Shown one piece after another: positions 13,611 to 45,280 of a DNA stretch of 64,000 nt. The translations under genes were made by a program, and so were the position numbers. Below the pieces are notes generated by a model, which was not told the origin of the DNA, made no database searches, and was given only the letters and a program-made list of their open reading frames with translations. This stretch comes from Oscillospiraceae bacterium. Its GTDB lineage: Bacteria > Bacillota > Clostridia > Oscillospirales > Ruminococcaceae. The DNA lies in assembly GCA_017512745.1 (NCBI GenBank), contig JAFWEV010000098.1, positions 1 to 64,000 of the forward strand. Direction: 5' to 3'. Within the stretch, counting starts at the first letter, position 1. Each line of letters opens with the position of its first letter.

Positions 13611-13964
13611 TTGGCGTCACACAGAGTAGAAAGACTCAATAAAGACATAAAGGTCCATCTCTCAAGAGAGATCCCCACACTTAAGGATCCCAGAGTGGAC
13701 TGCATGCCGTCAGTCGTGAGGGTCGAAGTCACCCCCGATCTGTCTCATGCGACTATCCTGATCAGCTCCGTATACGGACTTGACAGGGCTAAAGAGTGCT
13801 GTGAGGGGCTCAAGAATGCGGCAGGTTATCTGAGATCGTCGATCTCCAGATCCATGCACATAAGAAAAGCACCGGAACTGCACTTCATCCCCGACGGATC
13901 GGTCGAGTATGCCGATCACATAAACCGTATCCTGGAGAAGATCAATCATGAGTCAGAAGACTGA
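13611..13964 (+). CDS. rbfA: 30S ribosome-binding factor RbfA
   Basis: A 117-residue KH-fold protein: HRVERLNKDIKVHLSREIPTLKDPRV, then VVRVEVTPDLSHATILISSVYG and LRSSISRSMHIRKAPELHFIPDGSVEYADHINRILEKI. RbfA supports late 16S processing and cold growth. The start codon is TTG, supported by GAGGT at 13598-13602 with 8-nt spacing. It overlaps nrnA by 17 nt. Confidence 0.93.
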   Translation: MASHRVERLNKDIKVHLSREIPTLKDPRVDCMPSVVRVEVTPDLSHATILISSVYGLDRAKECCEGLKNAAGYLRSSISRSMHIRKAPELHFIPDGSVEYADHINRILEKINHESED

Positions 13965-14913
13965 TATAGCTAAAACATGCGAGCTGCTTACAAAGAGCGG
14001 CTCGCTTGCCATACTCACACACAAGAATCCCGACGGGGATACCCTCGGGACGGCATATGCGCTCTGGCACACTCTCGGCAGGCTCGGCATAAGGAGCAAG
14101 GTCATATCCGCTAGGGAATTTCCCAAAAGATATTCCGTGATAAAGGAATACTATGATCTCAATGCCGATGAGGACTTCACGCCCGATGCCGTCGTATCCG
14201 TCGACTGCGCGGGGATCAGCCTGCTTCCTCAGGAAGCCGAGCCCTACAGGGACAATGTCCTCCTTGCCATCGATCATCACGGAACGCATAAGGATTTTGC
14301 GGAATACCTGCTGCTCGATGCGGGAAGAGAATCCTGCGCCGGCGTCCTTTCCGGGATAATAGACGAACTCGGAGTGGAGTGGGACGACTATACGGCGAAA
14401 TGTCTCTATACCGGGCTGTCCACGGACACCGGATGCTTCAGATATACGAATACCACGGCGGAGTCGCTGGAACTTGCGGCAAGGCTGTACAGATACAACA
14501 TTGATGCCGCAAGGCTCAACTATCTGTATTTCGAGGAAAAATCCCTCTCCCATCTGGAGCTCGAAAGAGAAGCTCTTTCCGAGATGGAGCTCTATCTCGG
14601 AGGAACGATAGCCCTTATGGTCCTGACCAAGGATATGCTCGCCAGAGCCGGAGCAAAACTCAACGACATAGAGGGGATAACCCCCATACCGAGACAGATC
14701 GAAGGAGTAAAGGTCGGGATCACGCTGAGAGAACTCGATTCGGGGAACTGGAAGGGATCTCTCAGAACGATGGGTGAACCCGACGCGGCGGAGATCTGCA
14801 GAAAGCTCGGAGGAGGCGGACATCCCGGCGCTGCCGGATTTGAGTGTTCCGGCACGCTCTCCGACATAAAAAAACTGATCCTGGCAGAGACCGCGGCGGC
14901 TATCAACAGCTGA
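13948..14913 (+). CDS. nrnA: DHH-family phosphoesterase NrnA (nanoRNase / pAp phosphatase)
   Basis: A 321-residue DHH-DHHA1 protein. Motifs are HKNPDGDTLGTAYAL, VSVDCAG, IDHHGTH (the DHH triad) and GGGGHPGAAGFE near the C-terminus (DHHA1 substrate site). NrnA degrades 2-5 nt RNAs and dephosphorylates pAp. It sits between rbfA and truB as in most Bacillota. Confidence 0.92.
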   Translation: MSQKTDIAKTCELLTKSGSLAILTHKNPDGDTLGTAYALWHTLGRLGIRSKVISAREFPKRYSVIKEYYDLNADEDFTPDAVVSVDCAGISLLPQEAEPYRDNVLLAIDHHGTHKDFAEYLLLDAGRESCAGVLSGIIDELGVEWDDYTAKCLYTGLSTDTGCFRYTNTTAESLELAARLYRYNIDAARLNYLYFEEKSLSHLELEREALSEMELYLGGTIALMVLTKDMLARAGAKLNDIEGITPIPRQIEGVKVGITLRELDSGNWKGSLRTMGEPDAAEICRKLGGGGHPGAAGFECSGTLSDIKKLILAETAAAINS

Positions 14914-39261: not shown

Positions 39262-39306
39262 TTGACTTTATAGACCGTGATTGCTAAAATTGAAAACGAT
39301 TTTCAA
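39262..39306 (+). promoter_or_regulatory. Promoter and Fur/Zur-like box of the zinc operon
   Basis: TTGACT (39262-39267) and TAAAAT (39285-39290) are spaced by 17 bp. The dyad TTGAAAACGATTTTCAA (39290-39306; 7-3-7) begins at the last base of the -10. This matches the size and placement of Fur-family operators, predicting metal-dependent autorepression. Confidence 0.72.
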
Positions 39307-39319
39307 ATTGGAGCATATC

Positions 39320-39742
39320 ATGGCAACGAGATCTCAGTACAATACAAAGCAGAGAGAGCAGATAATGGACTTCATCCTGACGAAGAAGGACGGACACTTC
39401 TCGGTCAGCGATGTCATGGATTATTGTGCGGAAAACGATATTCACATCGGACAGACTACCGTATACAGACACCTGGAAAAGATGGTGGATGAGGGCATCC
39501 TCAACAAGTACTTCGTTGATCTTCTGACTCCGGCATGCTTTGAGTACACCGGAGGCAAGCACACCCACAGTGGGCAGTGCTTCCATCTGAAGTGCGAAAA
39601 GTGCGGCAAGCTGTTCCATGTTCACTGCGATATGCTCGAACACATCGACGCGCATCTGGAAGAGGATCACGGATTCGTTCTGGATACCCGGAGAACGGTC
39701 TTTTATGGGACCTGTGAAGAGTGCAGGAGAAACGCAAGGTGA
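39320..39742 (+). CDS. Fur-family metalloregulator, probably Zur
   Basis: A 140-residue protein. The winged helix contains REQIMDFILTKKDGHFSVSDVMDYCAENDIHIGQTTVYRHLEKMVDEGILNKY. The dimerisation part has the metal motif H-x-H (KHTHSGQCFHLKCEKCGKLFHVHC) and a second cysteine pair CEECRRNAR, giving the structural zinc site. ATG 39320 is selected because GGAG (39310-39313) precedes it. It leads an operon with a zinc-type ABC transporter, so zinc sensing is the best inference over iron. Confidence 0.85.
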   Translation: MATRSQYNTKQREQIMDFILTKKDGHFSVSDVMDYCAENDIHIGQTTVYRHLEKMVDEGILNKYFVDLLTPACFEYTGGKHTHSGQCFHLKCEKCGKLFHVHCDMLEHIDAHLEEDHGFVLDTRRTVFYGTCEECRRNAR

Positions 39743-40035
39743 ACGTGCGGACGAAAAAACTGATCAAACGCATCGCGGTCATGTGCCTGGTGGCTTTTCT
39801 TCTGTGCACTGCTTACCTGATCATCGAGGCGGATCACGACTGTACGGGTGAAGAATGCCGGATATGCGAGACAATAGACGCATTGCTGACGGGGGCAAAA
39901 GAAGCGGCATCATGTTTTGCGTCTGCCGGAGCAGTCCGGGCAGCCGCAGTGCTCCTGATGCTTTGCGCAGGTCTTATAACTGTTCCGTTCCTCCCGGACA
40001 CGCCTGTTATCAACAAGATACGCATAGACTGTTAG
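39739..40035 (+). CDS. Small membrane protein with Cys/His metal-like motif
   Basis: A 98-residue protein with two membrane helices: one near the start (IAVMCLVAFLLCTAYLIIE) and one near the end (AAAVLLMLCAGLITVPFL). Between them is DHDCTGEECRICETID, where H, C, C and C could bind a metal ion. GTG 39739 overlaps the regulator stop by 4 nt, and AGGAGA (39725-39730) lies 8 nt upstream. It is translationally coupled to the Fur/Zur gene and precedes znuA. I do not recognise a named family. A role in metal handling at the membrane is inferred from context only. Confidence 0.7.
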   Translation: MNVRTKKLIKRIAVMCLVAFLLCTAYLIIEADHDCTGEECRICETIDALLTGAKEAASCFASAGAVRAAAVLLMLCAGLITVPFLPDTPVINKIRIDC

Positions 40036-40093
40036 TTTAAGGTATTCACGGTATAATACCGGCCGCAACTGACAGAAAGGAATTTATAAAGCA

Positions 40094-41074
40094 ATGAAAA
40101 GAATAATCAGCAGCTGTACAGTCGTACTGTTGCTTATATGTATACTCTGCTCATGCGGAGCATCTCAGGGGGCAGCGTCTTCCGGAAACGCCGGGAAGAC
40201 CAGCGTTGTAGTCACGATTTTCCCGGAATATGACTGGGTAAGAGAGATCGCCGGCGAAAAAGCCGGAGATCTCGACATTACGTTGCTCATGGACAGCGGC
40301 GTGGATCTTCACAGTTTTCAGCCTTCCGCTGAGGACATCATGAAGATCTCCACATGCGATGTGTTTATATATGTCGGAGGAAACTCAGACGCCTGGGCGA
40401 ACGACGCGCTAAAGACAAGCACCAACAAAGACATGACTGTTATCAACCTTATTGATGAGCTCGGCAGCCTCGCCAAGGAAGAGGAGATCGTCGAGGGAAT
40501 GCAGGGCGAAGAAGAGGAAGAGGAGGCAGAGGAAGGTCCGGAATACGACGAACACGTATGGCTTTCCTTAAGGAACGCCTCGCATATCTGCGGCGTTATC
40601 GCGGATGCGCTGTCAGAAAAGGACCCCGCAAACGCATCCGTGTATAAGGCGAACAGCGAGGCATATCTGGCAAAACTGTCAACTCTCGACTCGGAATACG
40701 GGAAGGCGGTAAGCTCCGCAAAGTTCGATACGGTACTGTTCGGGGACAGATTCCCGTTCAGATATCTCACGGACGACTATGGACTCAAGTACTATGCAGC
40801 GTTTGTTGGCTGTTCCGCCGAGACCGAAGCGAGTTTTGAGACGGTCATTTTCCTCGCCGACAAACTGAATGAGCTGGGGCTCGGAAATGTATGCACGATT
40901 GAGAGCTCTGACGGCTCGATAGCAAGAACGATAATCGATACGGCAAAGAGCGATGCCGGCATCGTAGTGCTCGACTCCATGCAGTCTGTAACCGCAGCCG
41001 ATATCGAAAACGGCGCAACATACCTCTCCGTCATGGAGAGCAATCTAAATAACCTGAAAGAAGCATTGAATTAA
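40094..41074 (+). CDS. znuA: Zinc/manganese ABC transporter substrate-binding lipoprotein (ZnuA-like)
   Basis: A 326-residue cluster A-I binding protein with lipobox LCSC. Expected ligands are visible in DSGVDLHSFQPSAED and YDEHVWLSLRNA. The third-ligand region reads FGDRFPFRYLTDDYGLKYYAAF where many members have a histidine. The usual His-rich loop is replaced by an acidic run (EGMQGEEEEEEAEEGPE, about residues 138-154). It captures metal outside the membrane for ZnuBC. First of three transporter genes, 10 nt before the ATPase. Confidence 0.87.
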   Translation: MKRIISSCTVVLLLICILCSCGASQGAASSGNAGKTSVVVTIFPEYDWVREIAGEKAGDLDITLLMDSGVDLHSFQPSAEDIMKISTCDVFIYVGGNSDAWANDALKTSTNKDMTVINLIDELGSLAKEEEIVEGMQGEEEEEEAEEGPEYDEHVWLSLRNASHICGVIADALSEKDPANASVYKANSEAYLAKLSTLDSEYGKAVSSAKFDTVLFGDRFPFRYLTDDYGLKYYAAFVGCSAETEASFETVIFLADKLNELGLGNVCTIESSDGSIARTIIDTAKSDAGIVVLDSMQSVTAADIENGATYLSVMESNLNNLKEALN

Positions 41075-41083
41075 GAGGTCGAT

Positions 41084-41776
41084 ATGGCACTTATAACAGC
41101 AGATCATCTGAAACTGGGATATGATTCGCAGATAGTGGCGAGCGATCTGTCTTTTACGGTTGAAGAGGGAGACTATCTCTGTATCATCGGAGAAAACGGA
41201 TCGGGCAAGACCACTCTCATGAAAGCGCTCCTCGGGCTTCACAAGCCTCTGGAAGGTTCTCTCGAATTCGCTGAGGACATGGACCAGAACGAGATAGGAT
41301 ATCTTCCGCAGCAGACGGTCATACAGAGCGATTTCCCGGCATCTGTAAGGGAGATAGTTCTCTCCGGCTGCCAGGGACACTGGCGAAACAGATTTTTCTA
41401 CAGCGCGGAAGACAGGGCGACTGCGAAGAGATATATCGAACAGGTCGGGATAACCGATCTGGCTGACAAATACTATTCGGATCTGTCCGGAGGACAGAAA
41501 CAGAGAGTGCTGCTCGCAAGAGCTCTCTGCGCTGCTGTTAAGGTGCTTCTTCTCGATGAACCGATCGCGGGACTAGACCCGAGTGCCTCTGAGAATATGT
41601 ACAGAGTGATAAAGGAACTCAACGGGGCAGGAATGACGATCATCATGATCTCGCATGACCTCACTTCCGCGCTCAAAGATGCGAATAAAGTCCTGCACAT
41701 AGGTGAGACCAATTATTTCGGAACGGTCTCGGAATACCTGAAAGTCAGAACGGAAGACCTGGGAGGTGCCAAATGA
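41084..41776 (+). CDS. znuC: Zinc/manganese ABC transporter ATPase (ZnuC-like)
   Basis: A 230-residue ABC ATPase. Walker A is GENGSGKTT, the Q-loop sits in GYLPQQT, the signature is LSGGQKQRVLLARAL and Walker B is VLLLDEPIAGLD with the switch histidine in MISHDL. It powers metal uptake with the permease that overlaps it by 4 nt. Confidence 0.92.
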   Translation: MALITADHLKLGYDSQIVASDLSFTVEEGDYLCIIGENGSGKTTLMKALLGLHKPLEGSLEFAEDMDQNEIGYLPQQTVIQSDFPASVREIVLSGCQGHWRNRFFYSAEDRATAKRYIEQVGITDLADKYYSDLSGGQKQRVLLARALCAAVKVLLLDEPIAGLDPSASENMYRVIKELNGAGMTIIMISHDLTSALKDANKVLHIGETNYFGTVSEYLKVRTEDLGGAK

Positions 41777-42615
41777 TACAGAAACTCATAATGTACTTCC
41801 AGTTTCCGTTTGTAAGATACGCCCTTATAGTCGGAGTGCTGATAGCCCTGTGTTCTTCGCTGCTGGGAGTGACTCTTGTGCTCAAAAGATATTCGTTTAT
41901 AGGAGACGGGCTCTCCCATGTTGCTTTCGGCGCGATGGCCGTAGCGGCTGTCATGAGATTCGCGAGCACCACGGTAGTCGTGCTCCCGGTCACGGTGATA
42001 TGCGCGATACTGCTGCTGAGGAGAGGGCAGAACGCGAAAATACACGGAGACGCAGCGATAGCTATGCTCTCCGTATCCGCGCTCGCTTTCGGATATATGC
42101 TGATGAACGTGTTCTCGGCATCGTCTAATGTTTCGGGAGATGTCTGCAGCACGCTCTTCGGCTCGACGTCCATACTCACGCTCTCAAAGACGGATGTATG
42201 GCTCTGCGCGGTGCTGGCAGTAGTTATGCTGGCGCTGTTTGTCCTGCTTTTCAACAGGATATTCGCCGTCACGTTCGACGAGACGTTCGCGAAGGCGATC
42301 GGCATCAACGCCGACAGATACAACCTCATCATCGCAATAATGATAGCGGTGATAATCGTCCTGGCGATGAATCTTGTCGGATCTCTCCTCATCTCCGCGC
42401 TTGTCATATTCCCCGCGCTTTCCGCAATGAGATTGTACAGATCGTTCCTCAAAGTTACGGTCTGTTCCGGTATACTGTCCGTTCTGTGCGCGCTTGCAGG
42501 CATACTCATATCCATACTTGCGGGAACTCCCGTGGGTTCGACCATAGTTGCCGCCGACGCCGTCGTATTTCTGATCTGCTGTGTTTTGAAAAGAATTGGG
42601 GTTGGAACTGAATGA
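41773..42615 (+). CDS. znuB: Zinc/manganese ABC transporter permease (ZnuB-like)
   Basis: A 280-residue permease of the ABC-3 family with about eight helices. Characteristic parts are LGVTLVLKRYSFIGDGLSHVAFGAMAVA near the N-terminus, FDETFAKAIGIN in the middle and VGSLLISALVIFPALSAMRL, then a C-terminal helix pair. It overlaps the ATPase gene at the start and the next lipoprotein gene by 4 nt at the end, so the cluster is one operon. Confidence 0.92.
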   Translation: MIQKLIMYFQFPFVRYALIVGVLIALCSSLLGVTLVLKRYSFIGDGLSHVAFGAMAVAAVMRFASTTVVVLPVTVICAILLLRRGQNAKIHGDAAIAMLSVSALAFGYMLMNVFSASSNVSGDVCSTLFGSTSILTLSKTDVWLCAVLAVVMLALFVLLFNRIFAVTFDETFAKAIGINADRYNLIIAIMIAVIIVLAMNLVGSLLISALVIFPALSAMRLYRSFLKVTVCSGILSVLCALAGILISILAGTPVGSTIVAADAVVFLICCVLKRIGVGTE

Positions 42616-43331: not shown

Positions 43332-43378
43332 AGATCCTGCGGACTGTCTTGCGGTCAGTCTGCGGGATCTTTGTTTTC
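43332..43378. terminator. Terminator between the zinc operon and the RT gene
   Basis: A 15-bp stem with a few G-T pairs (43332-43346 with 43356-43370) is followed by a T-rich tract. It overlaps the 3' end of the reverse transcriptase gene on the other strand. Confidence 0.8.
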
Positions 43379-44584
43379 CGGTGCGCTGTCCCGGAATAAA
43401 TGGTATTCATGCACGAGATTTCTGTATCCCAGAGCTTTGAGTTGTTCGTACCTGATGTTGTATCTCGACTTCGTACGGGTGCCGCTCAGGAGATACCGCA
43501 GGCATTCCTGCGCGTAAAGGTCGATCTCGTGCAGGCTCCTGTCGGTATTGATGACCGGAAAAAACCAGAGGCTCCAGGACAGTTCGCTGTCCTCGGGAAT
43601 ATCCAGGAGTTTTTTGTTGAATATCCGGATGAAGGCTTTGGCGGCCTGTTCGGGATCCCGTTCGTTTCTCGACCTCCAGCGCATTAGCGCGCGGGTCTTC
43701 CGGCGCATCTTGGCTTTAAGCTTTTTAATTGTTGCGGGAGCTATATCAATAACCCTGTCTCTGTATGAAAAGCCGAGGAACGTCCATCCGGTATCGGGAG
43801 ATCCGAACTCCTCCTTGTCGGGATTTATGGAGAGACCGTATTCGCCGAGCACACGCCTGAACATTCCGGCGCATTCAGCGATCCTCTCTCCGGAAGGAGA
43901 CATAAAGATGACGTCGTCGGAATATCTAGCGTAAAGTACTCCCTGCCCGGCAAAGTATTCGTCGGCGTCCCTGAGATACAGATTGGCGAGGAAGGACGAT
44001 ATAGGCGTTCCGGCCATGATGCCCTTCTGTTCTGTTATTGCCGTTCCGCCGTCGTATACGCGCTCCTCGAGAAGCAGCCCGCAGATGAATGAACATAGGA
44101 GCGGATCATCGCTCATGACTTCCCGGATCATGGGAATGAGACGGTCTACGGGGATCGAGTTGAAGTAGTTGCTTATGTCAGCCTTGTAGGAATACATGTT
44201 CCGGATATTTCTGGTTCCGGAGAGTTTCCTCACGGCGTCTTTTGCCGTGACTCCCGGTCGGAAGGAGTAGAGACTGTCGTTGAATATCCTGTCGTATTTC
44301 CTCAGGATGAGGTGAGTCAGTAGTTTCAGGACGGTATTCTCCGGCTCCGGGTAGATATACACGGTGCGTTTTTTTCCCGTGCTCATCTTGCTGATGACAG
44401 CTTTTCTGGGCAGCGGAAAAGGATCCCCGCGCTTTATTGAATTGAGCACAGGGATATATGACTCAGAGTCGATGAACGACCGGAGCTCCTCAAGGTCTGA
44501 TTTTGAGCGGGCGAGAGAGGATCTGTATTCCAGAAAATCCTCCCAGCACTGTTTGCGGTAAAGTTTGTCTAAAAGTGAATCCAT
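43355..44584 (-). CDS. Stand-alone reverse transcriptase
   Basis: A 409-residue RT. Motifs in order: the front LKLLTHLILRKYDRIFNDSLYSFRPG (85-111), catalytic Asp136 in YKADISNYFNSI, motif 4 GIMAGTPISSFLANLYL (188-204), active site YARYSDDVIFM with YSDD at 221-224, LSINPDKEEF (motif 6) and TGWTFLGFSYRDR (motif 7). A basic C-terminal helical region of about 120 residues follows, ending GYRNLVHEYHLF. No maturase X/HNH domain is seen, so it is not an intact group II intron protein. The retron motifs NAxxH and VTG are also absent. The catalytic aspartates are all present. The 162 nt upstream hold a structured element. Confidence 0.85.
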   Translation of the reverse strand: MDSLLDKLYRKQCWEDFLEYRSSLARSKSDLEELRSFIDSESYIPVLNSIKRGDPFPLPRKAVISKMSTGKKRTVYIYPEPENTVLKLLTHLILRKYDRIFNDSLYSFRPGVTAKDAVRKLSGTRNIRNMYSYKADISNYFNSIPVDRLIPMIREVMSDDPLLCSFICGLLLEERVYDGGTAITEQKGIMAGTPISSFLANLYLRDADEYFAGQGVLYARYSDDVIFMSPSGERIAECAGMFRRVLGEYGLSINPDKEEFGSPDTGWTFLGFSYRDRVIDIAPATIKKLKAKMRRKTRALMRWRSRNERDPEQAAKAFIRIFNKKLLDIPEDSELSWSLWFFPVINTDRSLHEIDLYAQECLRYLLSGTRTKSRYNIRYEQLKALGYRNLVHEYHLFRDSAPENKDPAD

Positions 44585-44592
44585 AGGTACAG

Positions 44593-44737
44593 AAAAAAGC
44601 AGAAAGAGAAATAGTTAAAGCCAGGGCAATCCCTGGAAGTACCAGACCGTACCCGAAACGGCTGCCTGCGAAGCGCTCATACTGCTCCGGGCCTGGTCCG
44701 CCGCAGGCGCTATAGAGCATTCTCTTTCTGCTTTTTT
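44593..44737 (-). ncRNA. Candidate RT-associated structured RNA with 18-bp terminal inverted repeats
   Basis: Perfect 18-bp inverted repeats (44593-44610 and 44720-44737; AAAAAAGCAGAAAGAGAA on the transcript 5' side) enclose 109 nt. Inside, read on the minus strand, are GCCTGCG pairing with CGCAGGC, a CCGT/ACGG stem, and a perfect CCAGGG-ATTG-CCCTGG hairpin. The right-hand repeat arm ends 8 nt before the RT start codon. TATAAA precedes the 5' arm and could be a -10. The layout is like a retron msr-msd with a1/a2 repeats, or like the RNAs of some defence RTs. No promoter is certain. The segment could instead code for a short membrane peptide. Confidence 0.55.
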
Positions 44738-44746
44738 ATACGGGGG

Positions 44747-45280
44747 TTATCTGCCGATGGCATTCCTGACGCGCTCACGAACGTAGGTTCTCGTATTCCA
44801 CCATCCGTCGTGGTCATAGTAGAAGCGGAGATACGGCAGTCCGATGGCCGCGCAGTCCCTGCGCAGCTTGTAGGGGGAACTGCTGTCGTGAAGCAGCTCG
44901 ATCTTGATCAGGTCCAGACCGCCTGAGCGCAGCGTATACACATATGACCTGGAACTCCTTCCGGGTTCGCGGACCGTTTCGTATTCCGGGAAATCGTCCC
45001 TGAAAATATGGTCGAAATACTCGAGATATGTCCCCGGATAATTGTACTGATTTTCTTCATCCGGCATGAATTCTCCCCAGGAATTGCCGTACGCGGCCGG
45101 CTGTCTTGCCGGAGCCTGAGCGGCGGAGCGGTCGGATTCGGGTACAGAGGCTTTCACCTCTTTGGCAGCTTCCTTGACATCCTCAGCCACCTCTTTTGCA
45201 ACGTCGGTAACGGTCTTGACCAGCTTGTCCAGATCAAGATCGGGAGCGACGTCCCCGAGAAGTTTGGAAAACAGTCCCAT
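44747..45280 (-). CDS. Hypothetical protein with helical N-terminus, upstream of the RT element
   Basis: A 177-residue protein. ATG 45280 is chosen because a strong AGGAGG precedes it; the upstream extension looks non-coding. The N-terminus is an amphipathic, coiled-coil-like Lys/Glu/Val helix (DKLVKTVTDVAKEVAEDVKEAAKEVKAS), then a Pro/Ala linker. The C-terminal 100 residues (GGLDLIKIELLHDSSSPYKLRRDCAAIGLPYLRFYYDHDGWWNTRTYVRERVRNAIG) form a compact domain that slightly recalls PD-(D/E)xK-type folds, but no complete catalytic set is visible. It may be co-transcribed with the RT. Function unknown. Confidence 0.65.
   Translation of the reverse strand: MGLFSKLLGDVAPDLDLDKLVKTVTDVAKEVAEDVKEAAKEVKASVPESDRSAAQAPARQPAAYGNSWGEFMPDEENQYNYPGTYLEYFDHIFRDDFPEYETVREPGRSSRSYVYTLRSGGLDLIKIELLHDSSSPYKLRRDCAAIGLPYLRFYYDHDGWWNTRTYVRERVRNAIGR

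Follow-up and report, generated by a model that had tools for sequence, protein, structure and literature searches.

In Class 2 defence-associated reverse transcriptases (DRTs), a conserved non-coding RNA (ncRNA) is encoded with the reverse transcriptase (RT), and in the known members it serves as template for repetitive complementary DNA (cDNA). Work on them has brought to light de novo genes in DRT2, poly-dA in DRT9 and telomerase-like repeats in DRT10. In DRT10 (UG17), a stable stem-loop comes before the 9-nt template, and after the template its first bases recur, an arrangement abbreviated A-B-A' (PMC12632851), and DRT9 (UG28) primes from C-terminal tyrosines (PMC12483538). The UG26 RTs seem to be unstudied, though their parts stand as three separate catalogue entries: the RT (PADLOC RT_UG26, PDLC03764), a partner protein (RTasCOG2852, PDLC03793) and the Rfam RT-5 RNA (RF03026). 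Here we describe a gut-bacterial locus carrying all three on the minus strand of a 64,000-nt stretch (the window) of contig JAFWEV010000098.1 from an Oscillospiraceae bacterium (GCA_017512745.1). The locus belongs to a catalogued, uncharacterised antiviral-type RT family, and we put at roughly 0.7 the probability that it is a three-part system of Class 2 DRT type, composed of the COG2852-like protein, the RT-5 ncRNA and the UG26 RT. Brought together, the three entries amount to a defined RNA whose ends can be inferred, candidates for both template and primer, and a partner that is nuclease-like.

Along the minus strand the order is partner protein gene, 9-nt gap, 145-nt RNA, 8-nt gap and RT (Table 1). 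Both proteins match their PADLOC families over nearly the full length, with no difference found. The RT is a member of the UG26 family, placed by profile scores: RT_UG26 (564 bits) is followed by UG27 (122), a generic RT model (121), UG4 (107), UG17 (99.6) and Drt9 (91.6), and the PADLOC matches other than RT_UG26 include the ncRNA-using families DRT10 (UG17), DRT9, DRT2 and Drt3a. Its catalytic residues, D136 and YSDD at 221-224, are invariant across 50 relatives. Foldseek searches with the structure model gave group II-type RTs as the best matches, then DRT9-ncRNA complexes (9vma/9nlv), with DRT2-ncRNA lower. The RT is not a group II intron protein: Pfam searching found RVT_1 alone, with no maturase domain, the NCBIfam group II model reaches 111 bits against a cut-off of 300, and there is no intron RNA in the window. 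Searches of the phylum with UG27 and Drt9 for reference RTs for a wide tree returned mostly group II-like RTs.

An earlier reading of the window from its letters (the sequence-only reading) had described this frame as an intact RT with both catalytic motifs and without a maturase domain or the NAxxH and VTG motifs, and all of this was borne out (ORF 43355-44584; Pfam and sequence inspection). It had proposed a retron-like or defence RT system of an unassigned class. A defence RT with an upstream template RNA fits the RT_UG26 match, the RT-5 RNA and its covariation, but the class is not unassigned, as RT, RNA and partner each match a library family. That reading overlooked both these existing entries and the co-directional gene at 44747-45280, which belongs to the unit.

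The RNA matches RT-5 with 88.5 bits over 44607-44712 of the minus strand, which is full-length for the model (gathering cut-off 45.7). The perfect 18-bp inverted repeats previously noted as bounding 44593-44737 are present with those boundaries, their arms separated by 109 nt; the best complementary run in 2000 base shuffles of both flanks was 15 bp. Of 200 dinucleotide shuffles, 199 fold less well than the element (z = -4.0). From an alignment of 40 RNA elements from relatives, a structure could be derived consisting of the terminal stem P1, a small and weakly supported P0 hairpin just inside it, a pseudoknot, a P2/P3 arm, a 3-bp P3b and a P4 hairpin. The covariance check proposed by the sequence-only reading revealed compensatory changes in 33 of 47 pairs: two-sided changes occupy 221 cells compared with 61 in shuffles, none of 500 shuffles reaches this value, and slid controls give 31-52 cells. 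P1 has 16 pairs of this kind among its 18, and the P3 and P4 helices covary too. GCCTGCG/CGCAGGC and CCAGGG-ATTG-CCCTGG, also pointed out earlier, are conserved in relatives as pairings, the two 7-mers forming the pseudoknot.

The pseudoknot hardly varies among close relatives. However, in L111, a 36%-identical UG26 from another order (463 bits), the RNA is kept with the pseudoknot compensated as GCUCGC/GCGAGC and an altogether different terminal stem of 14 bp. The Rfam structure line for RT-5 stops inside the terminal stem and covers neither P1 nor the pseudoknot, both of which are additions of this analysis. The inverted-repeat stem closes the ncRNA and the pseudoknot locks it; the RNA is structured, conserved and free-standing. 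A protein-coding reading of the 76-aa upstream frame (44490-44720) was considered and rejected, since what the alignment mostly shows is compensatory pairing together with changes in loop length; the RNA pairing is conserved, and this frame is not. In some RNAs (L009:4815-4961, L042:4176-4341, L016 and L056) about 25-70 nt are inserted into the P3 loop, and the insertion in L009 contains a second GCAGGC-like copy.

Table 1. Features of the UG26 locus in the window, in minus-strand order
Feature	Position	Strand	Evidence
RTasCOG2852 partner, 177 aa; N-terminal helix, C-terminal PD-(D/E)XK/Vsr-like fold (model)	44747..45280	-	PADLOC PDLC03793, 183 bits; upstream in 34/61 loci; fold
RT-5 ncRNA gene bounded by 18-bp terminal stem P1	44593..44737	-	RF03026 match; covariation in 40 relatives
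P1 5' arm (terminal inverted repeat); RNA 5' end by analogy with promoter-driven copies	44720..44737	-	Repeat, covariation, promoter copies
Pseudoknot 5' strand GCCUGC	44703..44708	-	40-RNA alignment; distant L111
P2/P3 arm: P2 44695-44700 with 44643-44648; P3 44685-44692 with 44651-44658	44643..44700	-	Covariation
Pseudoknot 3' strand GCAGGC, within P3 loop	44664..44669	-	40-RNA alignment; distant L111
P4 hairpin CCAGGG-AUUG-CCCUGG	44621..44636	-	Two-sided changes in 5/6 pairs
Unpaired UUUAACUAU between P4 and P1; fixed-length UUUAA + 4 nt, candidate template	44611..44619	-	Alignment; position analogous to DRT10 template loop (PMC12632851)
P1 3' arm (terminal inverted repeat), ending in U6	44593..44610	-	Repeat, covariation
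UG26 RT, 409 aa	43355..44584	-	PADLOC RT_UG26, 564 bits; RVT_1; AlphaFold2 (AF2) confidence (pLDDT) 92; conservation
RT Y394, conserved C-terminal tyrosine, candidate primer	in 43355..44584	-	Conservation

A scan of species genomes identified 61 UG26 loci, nearly all in Clostridia of gut metagenomes, of which 34 have the partner gene upstream; the surrounding genes vary. The RT-5 RNA occurs exactly once in each of 20 UG26 genomes tested (17 picked because no RNA was seen beside the RT, plus three more), so the homologues tested keep the element, and with its covariation the RNA is a conserved ncRNA encoded with the RT, as in Class 2 DRTs. Among 245 genomes of the window's order, the RNA is found in 10, the UG26 RT in 9 (8 genera) and the partner in 7, all nested within those 10; in the tenth RNA-bearing genome the RT is cut by a contig end, with about its first 75 residues present. 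In the genomes tested, pairing of RNA and RT is obligate, and the partner protein is found only with them. Searches of the phage, plasmid and viral-contig collections yielded distant RTs but no UG26. One genome (G096, contig C10) has two RT-5 RNAs, at 13870-13975 and 69213-69316, each followed by its own UG26 RT.

The partner protein is encoded co-directionally and directly upstream of the RNA. Searching Pfam with it gave no significant match. Its C-terminal domain has a high-confidence structure model; 3hrl, which is endonuclease-like, heads the structural matches of this domain, and I-Bth0305I, EcoT38I, Hjc and RecU are among them, at middling Z scores of about 5-6.6. The nuclease-like fold predicted by the model is in keeping with the name COG2852. 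In L111, the gene that precedes the RT was considered as a partner homologue and set aside, the similarity being too weak to claim.

In a clade of 15 RTs (tree rows; support 100/100), the RNA is found 1-9.5 kb upstream of the RT, on the same strand, wherever both share one contig, and at several loci opposite-strand genes intervene. TATAAT precedes the 5' arm in all 26 RNA copies read (most from this clade, some seen twice), exactly 9 nt from CAGAAAG in 22 and at 8 or 11 nt in the others; transcription is therefore expected to begin at the P1 5' arm. These observations are strong evidence that the RT-5 RNA is a free ncRNA and not a leader of the RT. An unlinked RNA with its own promoter implies action in trans, of which the clade is natural evidence. 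A second, independent unlinking is seen in a single genome (L007 and L082, on different contigs), where the RT stands alone and the partner gene and RNA are together on the other contig. At 11 loci of the unlinked clade an HD-domain gene (HD_5; about 794 aa) runs right up to the RT start codon (L019:2613-4997, and L029, L030, L032, L036, L037, L043, L044, L048, L053 and L055), which suggests translational coupling of the two.

Like DRT10, the window locus is tripartite, with an RNA of similar size (about 140 nt in DRT10) that has a large central stem and smaller stem-loops, and an unpaired segment follows a stable stem-loop about 18 nt from the RNA 3' end. It differs in that the DRT10 partner is a SLATT protein, whereas here the partner is COG2852-like and the RNA lies between partner and RT; the UG17 score of the RT is also low. 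With DRT9 it shares a fold match, an RT that probably binds an ncRNA, and a conserved pair of C-terminal tyrosines, but the Drt9 score is again low, and the RT-5 alignment has no conserved poly-U template loop. RNA binding and templating by the UG26 system are likely by analogy with these relatives. The 3' segment between P4 and P1 is UUUAA plus exactly four bases in all 60 pattern-readable elements (48 distinct); L111 departs from this pattern. An A-A' repeat of at least 3 nt with a period of 7-9 is present in 34 of 40 distinct segments, compared with shuffle means of 26.8 and 30.2 (p = 0.002 and 0.027), the sequences not being independent. P1 has only two invariant pairs, both A-U, and these same pairs would act as A'. 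That the template is exactly UUUAANNNN, which separates the last hairpin from the 3' arm, is a tentative assignment. GUAC-N6-GUAC was set aside as a template, N6 being the P2 3' strand and the second GUAC not being conserved. At their C terminus the UG26 RTs have SLVxxYY, with a tail whose median length is 6 residues, and the YY pair is present in 41 of 46, resembling the DRT9 primer tyrosines; by this analogy, tyrosine priming by the UG26 RT stands at about even odds.

In the mechanism that we propose, the RT would hold the ncRNA as a scaffold and DNA synthesis would be primed from its C-terminal tyrosine. A short unpaired segment, for which UUUAANNNN is the best candidate, would be copied repeatedly into tandem-repeat cDNA, the 3' arm offering its first bases for realignment; for the window, the predicted cDNA repeat is TAGTTAAA, from template UUUAACUA. 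Phage infection would alter cDNA synthesis, and the cDNA, the nuclease-like partner or both would stop the phage or the cell. An anti-phage role of the locus is probable because of the family, its sporadic distribution and the mechanism of its relatives. The most specific version, a separate Class 2 DRT that makes telomerase-like, tyrosine-primed 8-9-nt DNA repeats from UUUAANNNN and has a nuclease-fold partner, with one clade as a vertically inherited two-part system whose RNA acts in trans, may be correct, although we would not favour it over the sum of its alternatives.

Several points weigh against the three-part defence system and the mechanism proposed for it. The A-B-A' signal is modest by both shuffles, a permutation test that set the base before UUUAA against the A' side gave no significant result (p = 0.17), A' would overlap P1, and one of the two C-terminal tyrosines is missing from the window RT. 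Ten neighbouring genes of the window were scanned and no convincing defence gene was among them. No experimental or functional study of UG26 or RTasCOG2852 was found in the literature searched, which left out the primary papers on UG RTs and on the RT-5 motif. Finally, the unlinked-RNA clade inherits its RT and RNA in fixed synteny and lacks the partner protein, a pattern that could point to a housekeeping role.

Two alternatives draw on these points, and we regard both as improbable. The RNA may be only a scaffold, with DNA synthesis untemplated or protein-templated, or it may template a rolling-circle gene as in DRT2. The modest A-B-A' signal and a conserved core that is mostly structural would suit a scaffold, whereas the unpaired segment of fixed length with its near-invariant UUUAA speaks for a template, and an RNA of about 145 nt leaves no long unpaired template for a gene. 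Alternatively, the system may serve a domesticated host function instead of defence, at least in the Saccharofermentans-type clade, whose 15 RTs have recurring flanking chromosomal genes and no partner protein. Elsewhere, however, the RT occurs sporadically, in 9 of 245 genomes from 8 genera, and with changing flanks, as is typical of defence genes, and PADLOC lists both RT and partner protein as DRT.

The retron reading, in which the RNA is an msr-msd transcript with P1 as its a1/a2 repeats and the RT makes branched multicopy single-stranded DNA, is very improbable. A structured RNA with a closing stem beside the RT does resemble a1/a2, and beyond this the earlier retron-like assignment finds no support: the one retron model listed among the NCBIfam matches scores 53 bits against a cut-off of 235, the retron RT motifs are absent, no retron RNA family matches, and the locus has no long msd hairpin. 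Least probable is that the RNA acts in cis as a leader of the RT gene, be it an attenuator or a riboswitch. This would suit an RNA that precedes the RT start by 8 nt, as in the window, but not one that in other genomes is kilobases away, at several loci beyond opposite-strand genes, with its own promoter, or on another contig (L007), and that is kept in all 20 genomes tested.

In the window, the stretch that links the RNA 3' arm to the RT start codon (44584-44592) contains no Shine-Dalgarno-like sequence, and the same is true of several relatives (L004, L006, L023 and L046). Near the RT locus, positions 39281-42615 contain a regulator-like gene followed by lipoprotein, ATPase and ABC-3 permease genes, an arrangement that resembles a metal-uptake operon.
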